DNA from: Pontibacterium granulatum
GTDB lineage: Bacteria; Pseudomonadota; Gammaproteobacteria; Pseudomonadales; Balneatricaceae
Direction of reading: 5' to 3'
DNA length: 64,000 bases
Assembly: GCF_029961155.1 (NCBI RefSeq)
Contig: NZ_JASBRH010000007.1
Coordinates: 124,001-188,000 of the forward strand
Shown here: positions 18,585 to 62,962 of the stretch, one piece after another
Layout: the number at the start of each line of letters is the position of its first letter
Numbering within the stretch: the stretch's first letter is position 1
Notes under the pieces: generated by a model
Database searches by the model: none
The model's input: the letters and a program-made list of their open reading frames with translations, nothing else
What the model was told of the DNA's origin: nothing
Made by a program: the position numbers and the translations under genes

Positions 18585-19811
18585 TTGAAGCCACGGCAGC
18601 CACGGCCCATTTACGACTTCATGGTGATTGGCGGAGGCATCCTCGGGATGTCTACCGCGATGCAGCTTCAGGAGGCGTATGCCGGTTGTTCGGTGCTGGT
18701 GCTGGAGAAGGAATCTGCACCGGCCAAACACCAGACCGGCCGCAACTCCGGTGTCATCCATGCCGGGGTGTACTACACACCGGGTAGCCTGAAAGCCAAA
18801 TTCTGCAAAGCGGGCAACCTGGCGACCAAAGCGTTCTGTGACGAGCACGGTATCAAATACGACGCGTGCGGTAAGTTGCTGGTGGCGACTGACGCCTTGG
18901 AGCTGGAACGGATGCAGGCGCTGATCGATCGCTGCGCGCAGAACGAGCTGGAGATTGAGGTACTGGATCAGCATCAACTAAGTGAGCGCGAGCCTAACAT
19001 CAGCGGTGTCGGCGCGATCTTTGTACCCTCCACCGGTATCGTCAACTACGCGGAAATTACCCGCAAAATGGCGGAGATCGTACAATCTAAAGGCGGTAAG
19101 ATCCTCTATGAAACCGAGGTGCAGGGGCTGGAGCAGTTTACTGACCGGATTACTGCATATGGGAGTGATGACCGTTACCACGCCCGTTATATGGTCGCGT
19201 GCGCCGGTTTGCAGTCTGACCGTATCGTGCAGATGCTGGGTAAAGCACCGCACTTCCGCATTATCCCGTTCCGTGGCGAATACTACCTGCTGGACCAGGC
19301 CCACAATGGGATTGTGAATCACCTGATCTATCCGATCCCTGATCCGGATCTGCCGTTCCTGGGCGTACACCTGACCCGTATGATTGACGGCACGGTAACG
19401 GTTGGACCCAATGCGGTGTTGGCGTTTAAGCGTGAGGGATATGAGCGCAATTCGTTCAGCCTGAAAGAGAGCGCAGAGATGCTGCAGTATCCGGGGCTGT
19501 TACGCCTGCTGCGCAAACACTTCCGAGCCAGCCTGAACGAATTAAAAAACTCCCGCAGTAAGCCGGGTTACCTAAAGCTGGTACAGAAGTACTGCCCGTC
19601 ACTGAATGTGGATGACCTGAAGCCCTATCCGGCAGGTATCCGCGCGCAGGCGGTGACAAAAGACGGCAGCTTGGTGGATGACTTCCTGTTCGAAAGCACC
19701 CAGCGCACCCTGATTGTGTGCAACGCGCCATCGCCGGCGGCAACCTCGGCGATTCCGATCGGACAGCATATCGTCGAGCGCCTGTCGCGGCAGGTGGATG
19801 ATGTGTATTAA
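18585..19811 (+). CDS. lhgO: L-2-hydroxyglutarate oxidase/dehydrogenase
   Basis: 408 aa from the chosen start. A flavoprotein that oxidises L-2-hydroxyglutarate to 2-oxoglutarate and passes electrons to quinone. The FAD-binding motif IYDFMVIGGGILGMSTAMQLQ is at the N-terminus, followed by HQTGRNSGVIHAGVYYTPGSLKAKFC, which is diagnostic for LhgO. The C-terminal PAGIRAQAV and NAPSPAATSAIPIGQHIV also match. I use TTG 18585, with GGAG 7 nt upstream; an earlier TTG (18519) would overlap trmH. No csiD is adjacent, so the 2-HG source may be general metabolism. Confidence 0.93.
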   Translation: MKPRQPRPIYDFMVIGGGILGMSTAMQLQEAYAGCSVLVLEKESAPAKHQTGRNSGVIHAGVYYTPGSLKAKFCKAGNLATKAFCDEHGIKYDACGKLLVATDALELERMQALIDRCAQNELEIEVLDQHQLSEREPNISGVGAIFVPSTGIVNYAEITRKMAEIVQSKGGKILYETEVQGLEQFTDRITAYGSDDRYHARYMVACAGLQSDRIVQMLGKAPHFRIIPFRGEYYLLDQAHNGIVNHLIYPIPDPDLPFLGVHLTRMIDGTVTVGPNAVLAFKREGYERNSFSLKESAEMLQYPGLLRLLRKHFRASLNELKNSRSKPGYLKLVQKYCPSLNVDDLKPYPAGIRAQAVTKDGSLVDDFLFESTQRTLIVCNAPSPAATSAIPIGQHIVERLSRQVDDVY

Positions 19812-55904: not shown

Positions 55905-58013
55905 TTGAGATCCTTTCGTCCGCTGCTGATTATTCTGACCCTCTGTCTCTCTCTCCTGCTGACTTGGTGGGTGCAGCATCGAGCCTACGACTGGTCGATG
56001 ACCCGGCTGAAAGAGCGGGGCGAGGATCGGTTGTTGAATACGATTATCGGTCTGCGTGGTGCCATCGACAGTTTCAACTACCTGCCGTTTCTGATCTCCC
56101 AAAACAAAGATGTGCAGGAGTTGCTGCTCTATCCGGTGCTGGATAAAGGCGCAGAGGTCAGCCGTTTTCTGGAGCAGATGAACCTGGTATCGGGTGCCAC
56201 CGCCTTGATGGTGTTAGATCTGGATGGGCGTGCACTCTCATACAGCCGCTGGCGTGAAGAACAAAGTTTTTTCCTGCGCTCCCACGCCCATAGCCCGTAC
56301 TTTACTCAGGCGCGTAATGGTGATCAGGGCGTTTATGTTGCGAGTCGTACCAATGGTGAACCGGCATCGATCTATCTGTCGGCACCGATCTACGATTCCA
56401 GCCGTTTTATGGGCGTCGCCGTGGTACGTATAGATCTGGACCAACTCGGTAACAAGCTCAGCCAGCTTGAAGATTTTCTCCTGATAGAAGGCAATGAGCG
56501 GGTGATCATGGCCAGTGCAAGGCACTGGCAGGGGCAGCCGCTCAGTTCTCAGGTTGAGAGTCGCGGTGAGTCGCAACTGGCCGATGGCAGTGCGCTGCAG
56601 CTACAGAAGCTGAAGGACGGGCGTCGGGTGTTATTCCAGTCGGTCGAGTTGCCGGATCTGGGCTGGCAGGTGGCGGTGCTCAGTGATGTGAAACCCGCGC
56701 TGAGAACGCGCAATACGGCAGCTCTGATCAGTCTGGGGGGCTGCTTGGCGTTGGGCCTGTTGTTGCTTTATATGCGCGAGCGTCACCTGAAAAACCTGTC
56801 CCGTCAGGAGACGCGTGACGCACTGGAACGCAACGAACGTCAGCAGCGCGACATTATCAGCAATGCCCATGTTGGAATGATCGGACTGGACGCAAGCGGT
56901 CGCATCAGTTTTATCAACCCGATGGCCTGCCAGCAATTCGGTGTAGGCAGCACACGTATTCTCGGCTACGAGTTTCAGAAACTGATTGCCGGCGCTGATG
57001 AGAGCTTTACCGTATTGCAGCGCACACTCTCCCGTTTGGGTAGTAAAGGGTTTGCCCCACTCACCGCACATGAAGTGGTGGGTAGCCGTGCCGATGGCAG
57101 CACCTTTCCGATGATGATCTCTATCAAGCAGATGGCGACGCCTACAGATATGCAGTATCTGGTAACGGTGATCGATATCACCAAGCGCAAGCGCCTGGAA
57201 TATGCTTTGCAACAGGCTAACGACCAACTGGAGCATAAAGTACTGGAGCGCACCCAGGCGCTGCAGGAGGCGCAGCAGGAGCTGGTACAGGCGGAGAAGA
57301 TGGCTGCACTTGGGCGGATGTCGTCGGCGGTAGTGCATGAATTGAACCAACCGCTTACCGCCATGCGCACCTATCTGGCGATCTGCCGTCATCTGATGTC
57401 AGGTGAGCAAACCCAACTTGCCGAGAATCTGGAGCTGATCGATGACCTCACTAACCGGATGGCGCTGATTACCCAGCAGCTGAAAACCTTTGCCTTCAAA
57501 AAACCGGATACACTGGTGCCGGTGAAACCATGTGTCGCCTTGGATCAGTCACTGGTCCTATTCCGTGACCGGTTAAAGCAGGACGGCATCGAACTACAGA
57601 TCGAAAGCCATGAGCCTGATCTGGAAATACCGGGAGACAACGCCCGCCTGGAACAGGTGTTTGTGAATCTGATCAAAAATGCCTGCGACGCCATGAGTGG
57701 GCAGCATCAGGCAAAAATCCTGCAGGTGAAGATTGCAACTGACCAGGCCGAGCCGGATGCTTGGGTGCGGATCTCCATAGAGGACAGTGGGCCGGGTATT
57801 CCGTCGGAAAGCCTGGAGCATCTGTTTGATCCGTTCTTTACCACCAAGGCGATCGGTGACGGTCTGGGTCTGGGCTTATCGATCGTCAGCTCTATCGTGC
57901 AGGACCTGGGTGGTCAGATCAGCGCGCAAAACAGGGTTGAAGGCGGTGCCCGGTTTGACGTTATACTTCCGCGCCACTCTGAAATTAGCGATATCGAACT
58001 GGAGAACTCCTGA
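55905..58013 (+). CDS. dctB: DctB-type sensor histidine kinase
   Basis: 702 aa. Membrane helix 1 (about 5-26), periplasmic Cache/PDC sensor (about 30-265), helix 2 (about 270-292), PAS (about 315-425), coiled coil, HisKA with phospho-acceptor in SSAVVHELNQPLTAMRTY (about 485), HATPase with FVNLIKNACDAM (N box), IEDSGPGIP (G1) and GDGLGLGLSIV (G2). DctB senses C4-dicarboxylates in known cases; the ligand here may differ. Start TTG 55905 has GAGG 5 nt upstream; earlier starts lie in the terminator. Confidence 0.9.
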   Translation: MRSFRPLLIILTLCLSLLLTWWVQHRAYDWSMTRLKERGEDRLLNTIIGLRGAIDSFNYLPFLISQNKDVQELLLYPVLDKGAEVSRFLEQMNLVSGATALMVLDLDGRALSYSRWREEQSFFLRSHAHSPYFTQARNGDQGVYVASRTNGEPASIYLSAPIYDSSRFMGVAVVRIDLDQLGNKLSQLEDFLLIEGNERVIMASARHWQGQPLSSQVESRGESQLADGSALQLQKLKDGRRVLFQSVELPDLGWQVAVLSDVKPALRTRNTAALISLGGCLALGLLLLYMRERHLKNLSRQETRDALERNERQQRDIISNAHVGMIGLDASGRISFINPMACQQFGVGSTRILGYEFQKLIAGADESFTVLQRTLSRLGSKGFAPLTAHEVVGSRADGSTFPMMISIKQMATPTDMQYLVTVIDITKRKRLEYALQQANDQLEHKVLERTQALQEAQQELVQAEKMAALGRMSSAVVHELNQPLTAMRTYLAICRHLMSGEQTQLAENLELIDDLTNRMALITQQLKTFAFKKPDTLVPVKPCVALDQSLVLFRDRLKQDGIELQIESHEPDLEIPGDNARLEQVFVNLIKNACDAMSGQHQAKILQVKIATDQAEPDAWVRISIEDSGPGIPSESLEHLFDPFFTTKAIGDGLGLGLSIVSSIVQDLGGQISAQNRVEGGARFDVILPRHSEISDIELENS

Positions 58014-59377
58014 TGCGCGGCACCGTAATGCTGATCGATGATGAAGCGATGATCCGTCAGTCCACCGAACAGTGGCTGAAGATGGCGGGTTTTGAGGTGC
58101 TCAGCTTCGACAATGCTGAAGCAGGGTTGGCGGCGCTCGACGAGCAGTTTCCCGGCATCATCGTCTCCGATGTAAAGATGCCGGGGATGGATGGCTTAAC
58201 GCTGATGGGCGAGGCACAGCTGCGTATTCCGGAGTTGCCGGTGATTCTGATCACGGGGCACGGCGATGTGGATATGGCGATTAAGGCGATGCGCGAAGGG
58301 GCGTACGATTTTATCGAGAAGCCCTTTGTGCCGGAGCGGCTGGTGGAAACTATCCACCGAGCCTGTGAGAAACGCCGCCTGATGCTGGAAAATCTGCGCC
58401 TGCAGCAAAACCTCCGTTCTCAAACCGGCCTGGATGCCAAAATTATCGGCACCTCACCGGCGATTCAGCGCCTGAAACGTGAACTGCTAAAGTGCGCCGA
58501 GCTGGATACCAACGTCATCATCTACGGTGAAACGGGCACCGGTAAGGAACTGGTGGCTCAGTGTCTGCACGAGTTCAGTGCCCGTAGTGGCAATAACTTT
58601 GTGCCACTGAACTGCGGTGCGATTCCTGAAGCGCTGATCGAAAGTGAGCTGTTCGGTCACGAAGCCGGCGCATTTACCAGCGCCGATAAACAGCGGGTGG
58701 GTAAGTTCGAGTATGCCAATGGTGGCACCCTGTTCCTGGACGAGATTGAGATCATGCCCGTGAACCTGCAGGTGAAACTGTTGCGCGCACTGCAGGAAGG
58801 GGTGATCGAACGCCTGGGTTCCAACAAACCGATCCCGGTGGACCTGCGTGTTGTGGCTGCATCCAAGGTGGATCTGAAAACCGACGAGGCGTTCCGTCAG
58901 GACCTCTACTACCGTCTTAATGTCACTCAGCTGCAAATCCCACCGCTACGTGAGCGCGAGGAAGATATCGTACTGCTGTTCGAACACTATGCGCGTCATG
59001 CCGCTTCTCAGCATGAACGGGAACTGCGTCGGGCAACGGCACAGGATATCCAGAACCTGGAGCAGTACAACTGGCCAGGTAATGTACGTGAGCTACGAAA
59101 TGTAGCGATCCGCTATGCATTGGATGGCGCGTTGCCTGTCGCGGATATTCTTTATCCGCAGGAACCGATGCTGGCCGCCGAAGCAGAGGAGAGTACCTTG
59201 CCGTTGGCAGCCCAGGTCGCCAACTTTGAAAGCAAGGTGATCGGTGCGTCACTGTCCCGTCACCAAGGTAATATCAAAGCGGTGTTGGAAGAGCTGGACC
59301 TGCCACGCCGCACTCTCAACCAGAAGATGGCCAAGTACGGTCTGAACCGGGCTGACTTTCTTACTGGCGAAGAATAA
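58013..59377 (+). CDS. dctD: sigma54-dependent response regulator, DctD-type
   Basis: 454 aa. Receiver domain with phospho-acceptor D in IVSDVKMPGMDG (about 53), AAA+ domain (about 145-375) with Walker A GETGTGKE, Walker B GGTLFLDEIE, and a C-terminal Fis-type HTH (ESKVIGASLSRHQGNIKAVLEELDLPRRTLNQKMAKYGL). The sigma54-contact loop reads GAFTSA instead of GAFTGA. The ATG overlaps the dctB stop, so kinase and regulator are coupled. Likely targets are the palindromes at 59375-59580. Confidence 0.93.
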   Translation: MRGTVMLIDDEAMIRQSTEQWLKMAGFEVLSFDNAEAGLAALDEQFPGIIVSDVKMPGMDGLTLMGEAQLRIPELPVILITGHGDVDMAIKAMREGAYDFIEKPFVPERLVETIHRACEKRRLMLENLRLQQNLRSQTGLDAKIIGTSPAIQRLKRELLKCAELDTNVIIYGETGTGKELVAQCLHEFSARSGNNFVPLNCGAIPEALIESELFGHEAGAFTSADKQRVGKFEYANGGTLFLDEIEIMPVNLQVKLLRALQEGVIERLGSNKPIPVDLRVVAASKVDLKTDEAFRQDLYYRLNVTQLQIPPLREREEDIVLLFEHYARHAASQHERELRRATAQDIQNLEQYNWPGNVRELRNVAIRYALDGALPVADILYPQEPMLAAEAEESTLPLAAQVANFESKVIGASLSRHQGNIKAVLEELDLPRRTLNQKMAKYGLNRADFLTGEE

Positions 59378-59393
59378 GCAAAATTTTGCCTAT
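59375..59393 (+). promoter_or_regulatory. enhancer palindrome 1 (probable DctD site)
   Basis: TAAGCAAAATTTTGCCTAT with the perfect core GCAAAATTTTGC (59378-59389). It overlaps the dctD stop codon. The same 18 bases TAAGCAAAATTTTGCCTA recur at site 2. Confidence 0.65.
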
Positions 59394-59529
59394 TCCCGTA
59401 TGTTTGCCGGATATGCATGTTTTCTGATCAGCTGTTTTCGGTTTCGGCTGCTATCCGGGGGCTGTTTGGAGCAGATGATCACGCTCGGCAGGGAAACTTC
59501 ACGACGAACTCACACGTTACGGTTAGCGA

Positions 59530-59548
59530 TAAGCAAAATTTTGCCTAT
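59530..59548 (+). promoter_or_regulatory. enhancer palindrome 2 (probable DctD site)
   Basis: TAAGCAAAATTTTGCCTAT, core 59533-59544, identical to site 1. Its centre is about 141 bp upstream of the predicted transcription start. Confidence 0.75.
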
Positions 59549-59562
59549 TGTTTCAGGTGGAA

Positions 59563-59581
59563 TGAGCAAGATTTTGCTTAT
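59563..59581 (-). promoter_or_regulatory. enhancer palindrome 3 (probable DctD site)
   Basis: Core GCAAGATTTTGC (59566-59577), one mismatch from sites 1 and 2, in reverse orientation. It is centred 33 bp (about three helical turns) from site 2 and about 109 bp upstream of the predicted start. Confidence 0.7.
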
Positions 59582-59624
59582 ACTGGCATTGCAAGGATGT
59601 GTAATATTTTAATACGTCGTTAAT

Positions 59625-59637
59625 AATCAATGGGTTA
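59625..59637 (+). promoter_or_regulatory. IHF-binding consensus between enhancers and promoter
   Basis: AATCAATGGGTTA fits WATCAANNNNTTR exactly. It lies between the DctD-like sites and the -24 element, where IHF usually bends DNA at sigma54 promoters. Confidence 0.55.
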
Positions 59638-59652
59638 CGATTTTTAGAGAAG

Positions 59653-59669
59653 TTGGCCCCCTCCTTGCT
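59653..59669 (+). promoter_or_regulatory. sigma54 (-24/-12) promoter of the TAXI-TRAP operon
   Basis: TTGGCCCCCTCCTTGCT has GG at 59655-59656 and GC at 59667-59668, 10 bp apart. It differs from consensus TTGGCACGNNNNTTGCT at two positions. Start about 59680, 46 nt before the ATG. Confidence 0.85.
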
Positions 59670-59725
59670 ATACCTCTATTACCTTTGTCGAAATAACAAT
59701 AATCCACCAAATTAAGGGTATTGAG

Positions 59726-60754
59726 ATGAACAACAGCAAGCGTACTTTTCTGAAAGGTCTGGGTCTGACACTGGCTATGGGTGCCGCACTGGGCACAGCA
59801 GGGCTGGCACAGGCCGCAGAGAAGCGTTCCTACATTCTGGCGACTGCATCAACCGGCGGCACCTACTACCCGGTGGGTGTAGCGCTGGCAACCCTGACAA
59901 AAGTGAAACTGGAACCTCAACACAAGCTGTCCCTGTCTGCGATCAACTCTGCAGGCTCCGGTGAGAACGTAAAACTGCTGCGTGAAAACGAAGCACAGTT
60001 TGCGATCATGCAGGGCCTTTACGGCGCATGGGCATGGAACGGTGAAGGCAAGGTGAAAGAGTCCGGTCCTCAGAAGCAGCTGCGCTCCGTATCCATGCTG
60101 TGGCAGAACGTTGAACAGTTCGTTGTAAAATCCGACTACGCCAAGAGCGGCACAGTAGAAGACCTGAAAGCCTTCAACGGCACCAAGTTCTCCATCGGCA
60201 AGAAAAACTCCGGTACTGAGGGTTCCGGGCGTCAGATCCTGGGTGGCTTGGGCATTGATCCGGACAAATTTGATCTGGCGTACATGGGTTACGGCCCAAG
60301 TGCCGATGCCCTGCAGAACGGTACCATTGACGGCATGAACATCCCGGCCGGTGTACCAACCAGCGCAATTACCCGTGCTTACGCAGCATTGGGCAGCGAC
60401 ATGACCGTCCTGAACTTTACCGACGAACAGATCGAAGCGGCGAACGGTAAATACAAGTTGTGGACCCGTTTTGTGATCCCTGCAAATACCTATCCGGGTC
60501 AGACCAAAGATATCAATACCATGGCACAGCCGAACTTCCTGGCGGTCCGTGACGATATCTCTGAAGACGATGTGTATATGATCACTAAAACCATCTACGA
60601 AAACCTGCCGTTTCTGAACGGTATCCACAAAGCAACCAAAGCGATGGCACTGGAAAAAGCGATTGCAGGTCTGCCAGTACCGCTGCACCCGGGTGCTGCG
60701 CGTTACTACAAAGAGATGGGGCTGGATATTCCAGCGCACCTGATCGCCGAGTAA
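59726..60754 (+). CDS. TAXI-family TRAP transporter solute-binding protein
   Basis: 342 aa. Signal sequence with a KR pair (NNSKRTFLKGLGLTLAMGAALG, Sec or possibly Tat-like), cleaved near AQA-AEK. The mature start RSYILATASTGGTYYPVGVALATL is the TAXI signature. TAXI proteins bind carboxylates or amino acids for TRAP permeases; the ligand is unknown here. ATG has GGG-rich AAGGGT about 6 nt upstream. The gene directly follows the sigma54 promoter, and the fused permease follows. Confidence 0.93.
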   Translation: MNNSKRTFLKGLGLTLAMGAALGTAGLAQAAEKRSYILATASTGGTYYPVGVALATLTKVKLEPQHKLSLSAINSAGSGENVKLLRENEAQFAIMQGLYGAWAWNGEGKVKESGPQKQLRSVSMLWQNVEQFVVKSDYAKSGTVEDLKAFNGTKFSIGKKNSGTEGSGRQILGGLGIDPDKFDLAYMGYGPSADALQNGTIDGMNIPAGVPTSAITRAYAALGSDMTVLNFTDEQIEAANGKYKLWTRFVIPANTYPGQTKDINTMAQPNFLAVRDDISEDDVYMITKTIYENLPFLNGIHKATKAMALEKAIAGLPVPLHPGAARYYKEMGLDIPAHLIAE

Positions 60755-60764
60755 ACCTCGCCTG

Positions 60765-60789
60765 CCCGGGGTGCTGAATGCACCCCGGG
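60765..60789 (+). other. intercistronic stem-loop between binding protein and permease genes
   Basis: CCCGGGGTGC (60765-60774), loop TGAAT, GCACCCCGGG (60780-60789), a perfect 10-bp stem with no T-run. It likely protects the 3' end of the abundant binding-protein mRNA or attenuates permease expression, as at other transporter operons. Confidence 0.7.
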
Positions 60790-60823
60790 ACTCCCTCCCG
60801 TTGAGCAAGTTCTGGATTTGATC

Positions 60824-62962
60824 ATGAGTTCCGAAACCCCTGTTACCGATCAGGATACAGCTGAGAAGCTGAAGAGCATGGAGCTGGTACAGCGCCCGGA
60901 TGATTCCTTTGCCGGTCGTTTTATCTACTGGGCTGGTGTGGTGTTTGCGCTGGCACATATCTATTTCAATACACTAGGTACCCTGTCTGAGTTGTGGGTA
61001 TCTGCGATCCACTTTGCCGGATTTGCGCTGATCTGCGGTTTGATGGTGCCGATGGTACGTTGCCAGACCGAAGCTGGCCGAAGGCTGACCCTGGTACTGG
61101 ATCTGCTGTTAGGGGTTGCTGCCATCTTCTGTACGCTGTACCTGATCGGCTTTGAAGATGCGTTGTACGACCGGGGCGTGAAATTCGTCGAGCTGGACTG
61201 GGTGTTCTCCGTTTGTGCGATCTTTATCACCCTGGAGATGGCCCGCCGCACCACCGGTTGGTTTATCCCCAGCATGATTCTGGTGGCGCTCACCTACGTC
61301 TTCTGGTGGGGCCAGTATATTGACGGTGTCTTTGGCTTCCCGGGCCTGAGCCTGGAAACCCTGCTGTACCGCAGCTATTTCTCGTCCGAGGGGATGTTCG
61401 GCCAGATCGCCCGTATCTCCTGGACCTATGTATTTATGTTTATCCTCTTCGGCGCCTTTCTGGTGAAGTCCGGTGCCGGCGATTTCATCATCGAATTGTC
61501 CCGCTGTGCAGCCGGTCGTTTTGTCGGCGGACCAGGTTTTGTGGCGGTACTGGGTTCCGGCCTGATGGGTTCCGTGTCCGGTTCTTCCGTGGCGAACACC
61601 GTATCCACCGGTGTAATCACCATCCCGCTGATGCGCCGTGCCGGTTTCCCAGCGAAGTTTGCAGCCGGTGTTGAAGCCGCCGCATCCACGGGTGGTCAGT
61701 TGATGCCGCCGGTGATGGGGGCTGGTGCCTTCATCATGGCGTCTTACACCCAGATCCCATACGTAGACATCATTGCCATCGCGGCGCTGCCAGCATTGTT
61801 GTATTTCCTCTCCGTAGGCTTCTTTGTGCGTGTGGAAGCGATGCGCAGCCATGCCCATGCGGTTGAGAGTGATACGCGACCGATTGGTGAAGTGTTCAAG
61901 GATGGCTGGCACTATCTGCTGCCACTGGTGGTACTGGTTGCGCTGCTGATCTACGGCTTTACGCCGACCTATGCAGCCGGTTTCTCCATCATATCGGTTG
62001 TGGCGTCTTCCTGGTTGTCCAAACATCCGATGGGTGTCCGTGACATACTGGATGCGCTTGCGCAGGGCTCCAAGAACATGGCGACCACCTCCATGCTGCT
62101 GATCTCGGTAGGTCTGGTAGTGAACGTGGTGGCGATGACCGGTATTGGCAACACGTTCTCCCTGATGGTGACCGACTGGGCCGGTGGCAGCCTGATGATC
62201 ACCCTTATCCTGGTCGCGCTGGCATCCCTTATCTTGGGTATGGGGCTGCCGGTAACCGCGTCCTACATCGTTCTGGCAACCCTGTCGGCTCCTGCATTGT
62301 ACGGCCTGATTGCTGAAAGCCAGCTGCTGGCGATGATGGTGGCCGGTCAGCTACCGGAGGCCGCACACAGCATCTTTATGCTGGTGGATATGGAAAAAGC
62401 CGCGTTGCTTACAGCGCCGATGAGTGAGACTGATGCGCAACTGTTGCTGTCGTTGGTGCCGGGTGACTTCAAAAATCAGTTGCTTGAGATGGCCCTTGAT
62501 CCCTCTGCCCTGGCAATGGCGCTGTTGTCTGCCCACATGATTATCTTCTGGTTGTCGCAGGACAGTAATGTCACACCACCGGTTTGCCTGACCGCATTTG
62601 CTGCTGCGGCCATTGCCAAAACGCCACCCATGGCGACTGGTTTTATGGCATGGAAAGTGGCAAAAGGCTTATATATCGTGCCGTTGCTGTTTGCCTACAC
62701 CTCGTTTATCGGGGGCAGTTGGGAGGAGGTTCTGAGCATCTTCGCCTTCGCCTGCTTCGGTATCTACGCACTGGTGGGCTTCATGGAAGGTTACCTGGAG
62801 AGCCAGCTGAATCTGGTTCAGCGACTGGCGTCCGGTGTGTTGGGAATAGTTCTGCTGTGGCCGCACGGCATGCTGGTGGCGAATGTAGTGGCTGCCGCGT
62901 TGTTTGTCGCGCTGTTTGTATACAGCCGTAAACAGGTTGCATCGGAAGCTCATTCCGCCTGA
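60824..62962 (+). CDS. TAXI-type TRAP transporter permease, fused small and large subunits
   Basis: 712 aa, about 16-18 membrane helices. The N-terminal part (about 35-190) corresponds to the small DctQ-like subunit, the rest to DctM. Conserved large-subunit blocks include GSGLMGSVSGSSVANTVSTGVITIPLM, EAAASTGGQLMPPVMGAGAFIMA and GMGLPVTASYIVLATLSAPAL. Solute enters with Na+ in characterised TRAPs. Start ATG 60824 (MSSETPV) has GGAT 6 nt upstream; a TTG two codons earlier is possible. Confidence 0.95.
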   Translation: MSSETPVTDQDTAEKLKSMELVQRPDDSFAGRFIYWAGVVFALAHIYFNTLGTLSELWVSAIHFAGFALICGLMVPMVRCQTEAGRRLTLVLDLLLGVAAIFCTLYLIGFEDALYDRGVKFVELDWVFSVCAIFITLEMARRTTGWFIPSMILVALTYVFWWGQYIDGVFGFPGLSLETLLYRSYFSSEGMFGQIARISWTYVFMFILFGAFLVKSGAGDFIIELSRCAAGRFVGGPGFVAVLGSGLMGSVSGSSVANTVSTGVITIPLMRRAGFPAKFAAGVEAAASTGGQLMPPVMGAGAFIMASYTQIPYVDIIAIAALPALLYFLSVGFFVRVEAMRSHAHAVESDTRPIGEVFKDGWHYLLPLVVLVALLIYGFTPTYAAGFSIISVVASSWLSKHPMGVRDILDALAQGSKNMATTSMLLISVGLVVNVVAMTGIGNTFSLMVTDWAGGSLMITLILVALASLILGMGLPVTASYIVLATLSAPALYGLIAESQLLAMMVAGQLPEAAHSIFMLVDMEKAALLTAPMSETDAQLLLSLVPGDFKNQLLEMALDPSALAMALLSAHMIIFWLSQDSNVTPPVCLTAFAAAAIAKTPPMATGFMAWKVAKGLYIVPLLFAYTSFIGGSWEEVLSIFAFACFGIYALVGFMEGYLESQLNLVQRLASGVLGIVLLWPHGMLVANVVAAALFVALFVYSRKQVASEAHSA

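Follow-up and report, generated by a model that had tools for sequence, protein, structure and literature searches.

The window analysed here, a stretch of 64,000 nucleotides from the marine bacterium Pontibacterium granulatum (contig NZ_JASBRH010000007.1, positions 124,001 to 188,000), carries a DctB-like sensor kinase gene, a DctD-like response regulator gene and, after a gap of ~350 bp, a two-gene row for a TRAP transporter with a TAXI-type substrate-binding protein. Judging from sequence comparisons, we believe that this locus is probably a dedicated uptake switch for C5 2-hydroxy- and 2-oxo-dicarboxylates. Comparison with related loci supports a DctBD-like, sigma54-dependent and probably IHF-dependent circuit that would drive the TAXI-TRAP transporter. 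The predicted metabolic partner of this transporter is L-2-hydroxyglutarate oxidase, whose gene, lhgO, lies directly 3′ of the permease gene in 32 of 80 related loci and 41 kb away in the window.

The proposed circuit and its conserved promoter

The sensor domain of the window kinase matches the DctB structures 3by9, 3e4o and 2zbb, and the locus has the composition of a two-component system, with a HisKA kinase that contains an H-box and a coupled regulator with receiver, AAA+ and helix-turn-helix (HTH) domains. The start of dctD shares one base with the stop codon of the kinase gene, at position 58013. The original prediction, made from the letters of the window, had described coupled dctB-dctD homologues followed by a TAXI binding protein and a fused permease. 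The domain scans and the one-base overlap bear out the first pair, and both transporter proteins score above curated cut-offs, with 341 bits against TIGR02122 (cut-off 84.35) for the TAXI protein and 655 bits against TIGR02123 (cut-off 320.65) for the single fused QM permease, which was scanned from the in-frame codon 60845. A Cache domain had also been attributed to the kinase; it is present as dCache_1, but the description was incomplete because the protein has a cytoplasmic PAS domain as well. The genome contains rpoN and three HU/IHF-family genes.

The gap between dctD and the TAXI gene holds three near-identical palindromes, an exact IHF consensus and a GG-N10-GC promoter, all of which had been predicted (Table 1). 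The palindrome pattern ATNRGCAANNNNTTGCYNAT, which was drawn up after the window sites had been seen, has three matches in the genome of 4,656,607 bases, every one of them in this gap, and its reversed control has none; a similar pattern with one mismatch allowed has four matches in the genome, three of them in the gap. Each of the three palindromes scores 15/16, and in 2000 dinucleotide shuffles of the gap a site of at least 14 arose in one and two sites of at least 13 in none. The sigma54 element is the sole match of its pattern in the window, where 0.28 would be expected. The IHF consensus has two exact matches in the window compared with 1.18 expected, which is not significant alone. In a relaxed palindrome scan of 40 genomes (one mismatch), matches occurred in at least 35; some of these genomes are without this TAXI protein, and the extra matches were not accepted as members of the regulon.

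Relatives were defined as the 80 loci (L137-L216) with close TAXI relatives, the best 80 of 572 confirmed, and the overlapping loci L039-L094 were left out of the statistics. These loci and genomes are related and not independent, so the contrasts below are not probabilities. Palindromes were sought in the 450 bp upstream of TAXI, and 568 further upstream regions from these loci served as controls. Two or more palindrome-like sites stand before TAXI in 62 of the 80 loci (controls, 3 of 568), a good sigma54 element is present in 63 (controls, 96 of 568), and paired palindromes and a sigma54 element occur together in 59, compared with 3 of the 568 controls. The spacing is also maintained. In 52 of 59 loci, the distance between the starts of the two promoter-proximal palindromes is 32-35 bp; the start of the last palindrome lies a median of 89 bp before the promoter in the relatives and ~90 bp before it in the window. 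With at most one mismatch allowed, 42 of 58 relatives have an IHF-like match between the palindromes and the promoter, where shuffles predict 12.1. Across 177 palindrome sites, which were chosen by likeness to the consensus so that base conservation is descriptive, the outer A1, T2, G5 and C6 and their mirror positions are kept at 82-99%, and the inner four bases vary.

Of the four further genomes in the window's genus, three keep the three sites at the same offsets with changed cores, and the fourth (L042) has weaker palindrome matches only. The -24/-12 promoter and the upstream activator sites (UAS) are conserved with the transporter, including in genomes without adjacent dctBD, and the module recurs in Oceanospirillaceae, Vibrionaceae and Moritella. 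The synteny of dctBD with TAXI genes that the original prediction had suggested looking for is found, as dctD lies at most 1.2 kb upstream of TAXI in 45 of the 80 loci. The proposal that DctBD logic has been joined to a TAXI-type transporter is supported, as a circuit, by the conserved sites; it does not, however, describe a one-off, and the arrangement recurs across families. Three loci without UAS have ribose genes nearby (two Vibrio) or rnf genes (Parendozoicomonas), and examination of their neighbours gave no hint of a substrate. The Enterovibrio TAXI loci L173, L174, L176, L181 and L182 have no palindromes, and a gene of the succinate-semialdehyde dehydrogenase family stands a few kb upstream of TAXI (identified in L173, with the same open reading frame (ORF) cluster in the other four).

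The activator gene does not always adjoin the sites. The kinase gene is inverted in several Vibrio loci, where dctD still precedes TAXI, and several Marinomonas loci and that of Balneatrix have palindromes before TAXI with no dctD adjacent. In a DctD tree of 71 rows (window DctD and G132 DctD each entered twice; midpoint root for drawing only), a branch with 100/91 support parts 60 rows from 11. On the 60-row side are the DctDs adjacent to TAXI in the 80 loci, a few DctDs from two other families, and the DctDs that three Marinomonas genomes and Balneatrix encode away from TAXI; palindrome sites nevertheless precede TAXI in these Marinomonas and Balneatrix genomes. The 11-row side contains the two other close homologues in the window genome, one of which (L125) adjoins DctP and DctM genes and the other (L124) lies ~4 kb from a DctM gene. 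A C4-dicarboxylate DctD would be expected to group with these two, which the window DctD does not, and no palindrome was found in the stretches examined beside them.

The sigma54-contacting loop of the window activator (58667-58684) reads GAFTSA in place of GAFTGA. Among 51 TAXI-linked DctD rows, window included, GAFTGA occurs in 38, GAFTSA in 8 and GAFTHA in 4, with none found in 1; GAFTSA and GAFTHA together account for 12 of 51. Some further TAXI genes were observed. At L132 (4966-11500), a distant TAXI gene (26% identical) and its permease gene adjoin another DctB-DctD-like pair, perhaps a second such joining. The second TAXI copies at L076 and L085 have dctBD only ~20 bp upstream, and the main TAXI genes of these genomes have palindrome-like sites and no adjacent dctBD. 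The window's genome carries two more TAXI genes a few kb apart on the same contig (L090, 8388-14156), whose products are 25-27% identical to the window TAXI.

Table 1. Genes and candidate regulatory sites of the TAXI-TRAP locus, with the lhgO gene, in window positions
Feature	Position	Strand	Remarks
L-2-hydroxyglutarate oxidase gene lhgO	18609..19811	+	NF008726, 598 bits; after trmH; predicted metabolic partner
DctB-like sensor kinase gene	55905..58013	+	dCache_1, PAS, HisKA, HATPase_c; start TTG 55905 or in-frame GTG 55803
DctD-like response regulator and sigma54 activator gene	58013..59377	+	Response_reg, Sigma54_activat (AAA+, GAFTSA loop), HTH_8 (Fis-type HTH)
Palindrome UAS1 ATAAGCAAAATTTTGCCTAT	59374..59393	.	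overlaps dctD stop codon
Palindrome UAS2 ATAAGCAAAATTTTGCCTAT	59529..59548	.	pattern match
Palindrome UAS3 ATGAGCAAGATTTTGCTTAT	59562..59581	.	start 33 bp downstream of UAS2 start
IHF consensus AATCAATGGGTTA	59625..59637	+	exact match, between UAS and promoter
Sigma54 -24/-12 element TTGGCCCCCTCCTTGCT	59653..59669	+	pattern match; similar elements in relatives
TAXI-type TRAP substrate-binding protein gene	59726..60754	+	TIGR02122, PF16868; 72% identical to PDB 9ibp
Fused TRAP permease gene (DctQM type)	60824..62962	+	TIGR02123, PF06808; likely start ATG 60824

The association of lhgO with the transporter

Beyond the four genes of the locus, lhgO is the one further widely common gene. It occurs in the flank of 36 of the 80 loci, and in 32 of these 36 it is co-directional with the permease gene and follows it within 250 bp. 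Neighbour genes were grouped by ORF clustering; the lhgO of L157 was missed in this way, found by tblastn and added. All five proteins scanned exceed the 299-bit cut-off of NF008726, the L-2-hydroxyglutarate oxidase family model, namely three TAXI-adjacent proteins (617, 609 and 617 bits), the window protein and that of Proteus. No lhgO was found in the flank of the 14 palindrome-less loci within the 80. The next commonest neighbour, prephenate dehydratase, occurs in 27 loci; it is biosynthetic and has the opposite orientation in the loci examined. Prephenate dehydratase and trmH near dctB were considered as partners and are read as a common neighbourhood instead. Among 293 genomes of the order, TAXI was found in 59, lhgO in 50 and both in 28, and lhgO is present in 20 of the 24 genomes whose TAXI is at least 71% identical; these co-occurrences were counted by eye from tables, and the lhgO search scored at most 6 candidates per genome.

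The window lhgO stands upstream of the TAXI-TRAP genes, directly behind prephenate dehydratase and trmH. Both of these genes are located just upstream of dctB in 9 of the 80 loci (Marinobacterium, Amphritea, Aliamphritea), and in a further 7 only prephenate dehydratase was detected at that place; in 7 of these 16 loci, lhgO follows the permease gene. Because prephenate dehydratase and trmH border dctB in relatives and precede lhgO in the window, it is probable that a single ancestral block of the transporter cassette and lhgO was split in the genus of the window. In the LhgO tree, the window copy and some TAXI-adjacent LhgOs share a 10-row set (96/91). The csiD-linked copies of the genus stand outside this set, and the second lhgO of the window genome groups with them. 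The Proteus LhgO row has a very long branch.

Control of unlinked lhgO genes by the same UAS was rejected for the genes examined, since the upstream regions of 17 lhgO genes (18 stretches were fetched, 17 of which held one) score 9-12/16 with no pair of at least 12. Glutarate, with csiD, was likewise rejected as the partner pathway; no GlaH match was found in the TAXI loci searched, and csiD is above the cut-off in 5 of 27 TAXI genomes. Two variations in gene content were also seen. L075, L080 and L086, from genomes of another family, have an LhgO-like gene (31-33% identity) ~2 kb upstream of TAXI in a different order, and in L256, a Photobacterium record, the permease and lhgO next to TAXI each match in two pieces.

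Substrate and signal

A Proteus mirabilis record contains one TAXI protein above the family cut-off, 46% identical to that of the window, in a row (L254, 7875-12841) with a fused permease, a GntR/FCD regulator and lhgO. By eye, the N-terminal segment of this protein looks membrane-anchored. The primary paper on the Proteus TAXI-TRAP is reportedly Roden et al. 2023, and because the record holds a single copy we take the transporter of that paper to be the TAXI of this row. In the accessible parts of two later sources, the P. mirabilis TAXI-TRAP is cited as specific for 2-oxoglutarate and 2-hydroxyglutarate (PMC12344293) and is called alpha-ketoglutarate specific and proton driven (PMC11574862). 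At the 13 positions that the available text names as surrounding the ligand in VcGluP (PMC11574862), the window and Proteus proteins agree in 12. The window residues N128, W126, T164 and P207 replace E, H, D and M of VcGluP and are identical in P. mirabilis, and all 18 aligned orthologues have Asn at the position of VcGluP E125, which contacts the amine. Such a loss of the amine-contacting Glu is consistent with an amine-free ligand. The conserved lhgO, the shared pocket positions and the reported Proteus substrates point to 2-hydroxyglutarate and 2-oxoglutarate as the likely ligands. The original prediction spoke of an unknown compound, for which these two acids are now the likely candidates.

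We propose that the circuit would work as follows. The DctB-like kinase would perceive an extracellular acid, with L-2-hydroxyglutarate or 2-oxoglutarate the most likely candidates, either directly or through the loaded TAXI protein and, as is typical of its family, would phosphorylate the DctD-like regulator. The regulator would bind the promoter-proximal pair of ATAAGCAA-N4-TTGCTTAT palindromes, with the third site farther off. IHF would bend the spacer and the activator would drive the sigma54 polymerase at 59653-59669, as the sites and their conservation suggest. The TAXI protein and the fused permease would then be made and the acid imported, and L-2-hydroxyglutarate oxidase, whose gene adjoins that of the permease in many relatives and which is assigned the reaction of its family, would convert L-2-hydroxyglutarate to 2-oxoglutarate for the tricarboxylic acid cycle. 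More tentatively, the system may be a widespread marine regulon in which the kinase detects extracellular L-2-hydroxyglutarate and a dedicated DctD-like activator and sigma54 switch on a high-affinity TAXI-TRAP transporter coupled to LhgO; we regard this narrower proposal as possible rather than probable.

Several observations weigh against the proposed C5 switch. According to the text available, the E125A substitution lowers the affinity of VcGluP only 1.3-fold (PMC11574862), so the pocket argument is weak alone, and the window and Proteus TAXI proteins share only 46% identity. In the window, lhgO does not adjoin the transporter, and no UAS was found upstream of it (best palindrome score, 10/16), so it is not under the control of this site. 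Paired sites are missing before seven Marinomonas lhgO genes not linked to TAXI, one of which has a weak single match (12, L272). By ORF clustering, lhgO is absent from the flank in 44 of the 80 loci (43 after the added tblastn match), and four genomes with a close TAXI (G050, G086, G005 and G053) gave no lhgO match among the at most 6 candidates scored in each. The TAXI-adjacent LhgOs are not one clade, as others fall elsewhere in the tree, and the presence of csiD (glutarate hydroxylase) in the window genome gives lhgO another possible role. Two TAXI-adjacent DctDs, L072 and L074, stand in the 11-row side of the DctD tree, on long branches. Moreover, the sensor is poorly conserved, with only nine of residues 90-190 kept at 85% or more in 45 TAXI-linked sensors.

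The same circuit could have 2-oxoglutarate alone as both substrate and signal, and the lhgO linkage would then reflect a side activity or a common product; such a mechanism is compatible with the switch proposed above. The alpha-ketoglutarate specificity stated for the Proteus TAXI (PMC11574862) and its agreement with the window protein at 12 of 13 pocket positions are consistent with this explanation, as is the control of alpha-ketoglutarate transport in Pseudomonas by the DctB-like MifS together with MifR and RpoN, described in the accessible text of PMC4482717. However, LhgO is not required for 2-oxoglutarate, and still its gene comes immediately after that of the permease in those 32 loci and appears again in Proteus, there following the gene of a GntR regulator; both acids are named for Proteus (PMC12344293). 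We consider this explanation rather unlikely.

What the kinase perceives is a separate question. The stretch SNW...SF.G....FR.YF...ALGT.S is present in the paralogue sensors L124, L127 and L129, the first of which belongs to the window genome, and in slightly altered form in VcDctB and SmDctB. In the window sensor it is replaced by HSPYF and VASRTNGEPASIYL, and the Arg of FRPYF/FRDYF and ALGT-S are missing. We consider a C4 signal for this kinase unlikely from these residues. The stretch is an uncertain mark of C4 sensing because the L125 sensor, beside the DctP/DctM genes of the window genome, also lacks what the solved C4 DctBs share. The prediction that the Cache domain and the TAXI protein recognise the same compound found no support, given a sensor that is without the solved-DctB stretch and poorly conserved in its group; for the same reasons, the signal for the kinase could be a related acid or the loaded TAXI protein. 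In the latter variant of the C5 switch, the transporter is unchanged and the kinase responds to the loaded TAXI protein rather than to the free acid. The poor conservation of the sensor domain beside the strong conservation of the TAXI protein agrees with this, and a precedent for sensing via a binding protein is reported, in the text available, for Bordetella, where BctC signals to BctE (PMC5812351). In contrast, dCache domains related to DctB are described, in the accessible part of PMC8694187, as binders of small carboxylic acids, and we judge sensing of the loaded protein to be unlikely.

A glutamate system, like VcGluP or the Cereibacter glutamate TAXI, appears highly improbable. In the parts available, glutamate is called a common ligand of the TAXI family (PMC12344293), with further cases in PMC11574862 and PMC12632250, and Y47, S78 and Q96 of the window protein match VcGluP contacts. 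However, the window TAXI is only 31% identical to VcGluP, the invariant Asn takes the place of the amine-contacting E125, TAXI is linked to lhgO, and no glutamate-specific gene was found in ten neighbour proteins scanned from clusters common to several loci. Uptake of C4-dicarboxylates by a DctBD system in which TAXI-TRAP has replaced DctPQM is the least credible alternative: the nearest solved relatives of the sensor are DctB of V. cholerae and S. meliloti, and the L125 sensor makes the missing stretch no sure C4 mark, but the Arg and ALGT-S lost from the window sensor are present in all three paralogues and largely in the two solved DctBs, the genome has a separate DctBD-DctP/DctM locus, and the lhgO link would be left unexplained.

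Relation to known systems

DctB-DctD with DctPQM or DctA are sigma54 systems for C4-dicarboxylates, with coupled kinase and regulator genes and a TRAP-type carrier. The window locus shares with them the domain layout of kinase and regulator, the sigma54 promoter, the gene coupling and the TRAP-type carrier, and it differs in having TAXI instead of DctP, a sensor without the solved-DctB stretch, a separate DctD group with its own palindrome and, in relatives, an lhgO partner. The Proteus mirabilis TAXI-TRAP is alike in its binding protein and pocket and in combining a fused permease and lhgO in one row, but that row has a GntR/FCD regulator where the window has DctBD. In the accessible text on MifS-MifR and PA5530 of Pseudomonas aeruginosa (PMC4482717), a DctB/DctD-like pair and RpoN also switch on a C5-dicarboxylate carrier; that carrier is not a TAXI-TRAP, and a word search of the same text found no hydroxyglutarate. 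LhgR-lhgO of Pseudomonas putida W619 similarly joins lhgO to a dedicated regulator without csiD, but the regulator is a GntR repressor that senses L-2-hydroxyglutarate, and a word search of the available text (PMC8206213) found no mention of a TRAP carrier. VcGluP-QM and TAXI-GltS likewise have TAXI-type binding proteins, whereas their ligand is glutamate, the pocket residues of VcGluP are different, and no two-component context was found for them in the sources accessible.

The working mode is like that of DctBD and of MifS-MifR with RpoN, and what differs is the carrier type, the activator group with its site, and the lhgO partner. No description of a TAXI-TRAP linked to DctB or to two-component control was found in the accessible literature searched, which held few subscription papers and no bioRxiv preprints. 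A two-component system for extracellular L-2-hydroxyglutarate, if true, would be new as far as that literature shows.

According to the available text of PMC11574862, TAXI-TRAP carriers are widespread yet poorly understood. PDB 9ibp, which is 99% identical to a Vibrio metoecus TAXI over the matched stretch and for which a literature search found no paper, already covers this TAXI subfamily, and the ligand question could therefore be settled quickly. The locus gives the subfamily a likely ligand class, a catabolic partner, an activator-site consensus and an activator group, and because these are now proposed, the substrate, the signal and the regulon are each testable. If the marine regulon suggested above is real, L-2-hydroxyglutarate would be a public nutrient in seawater.

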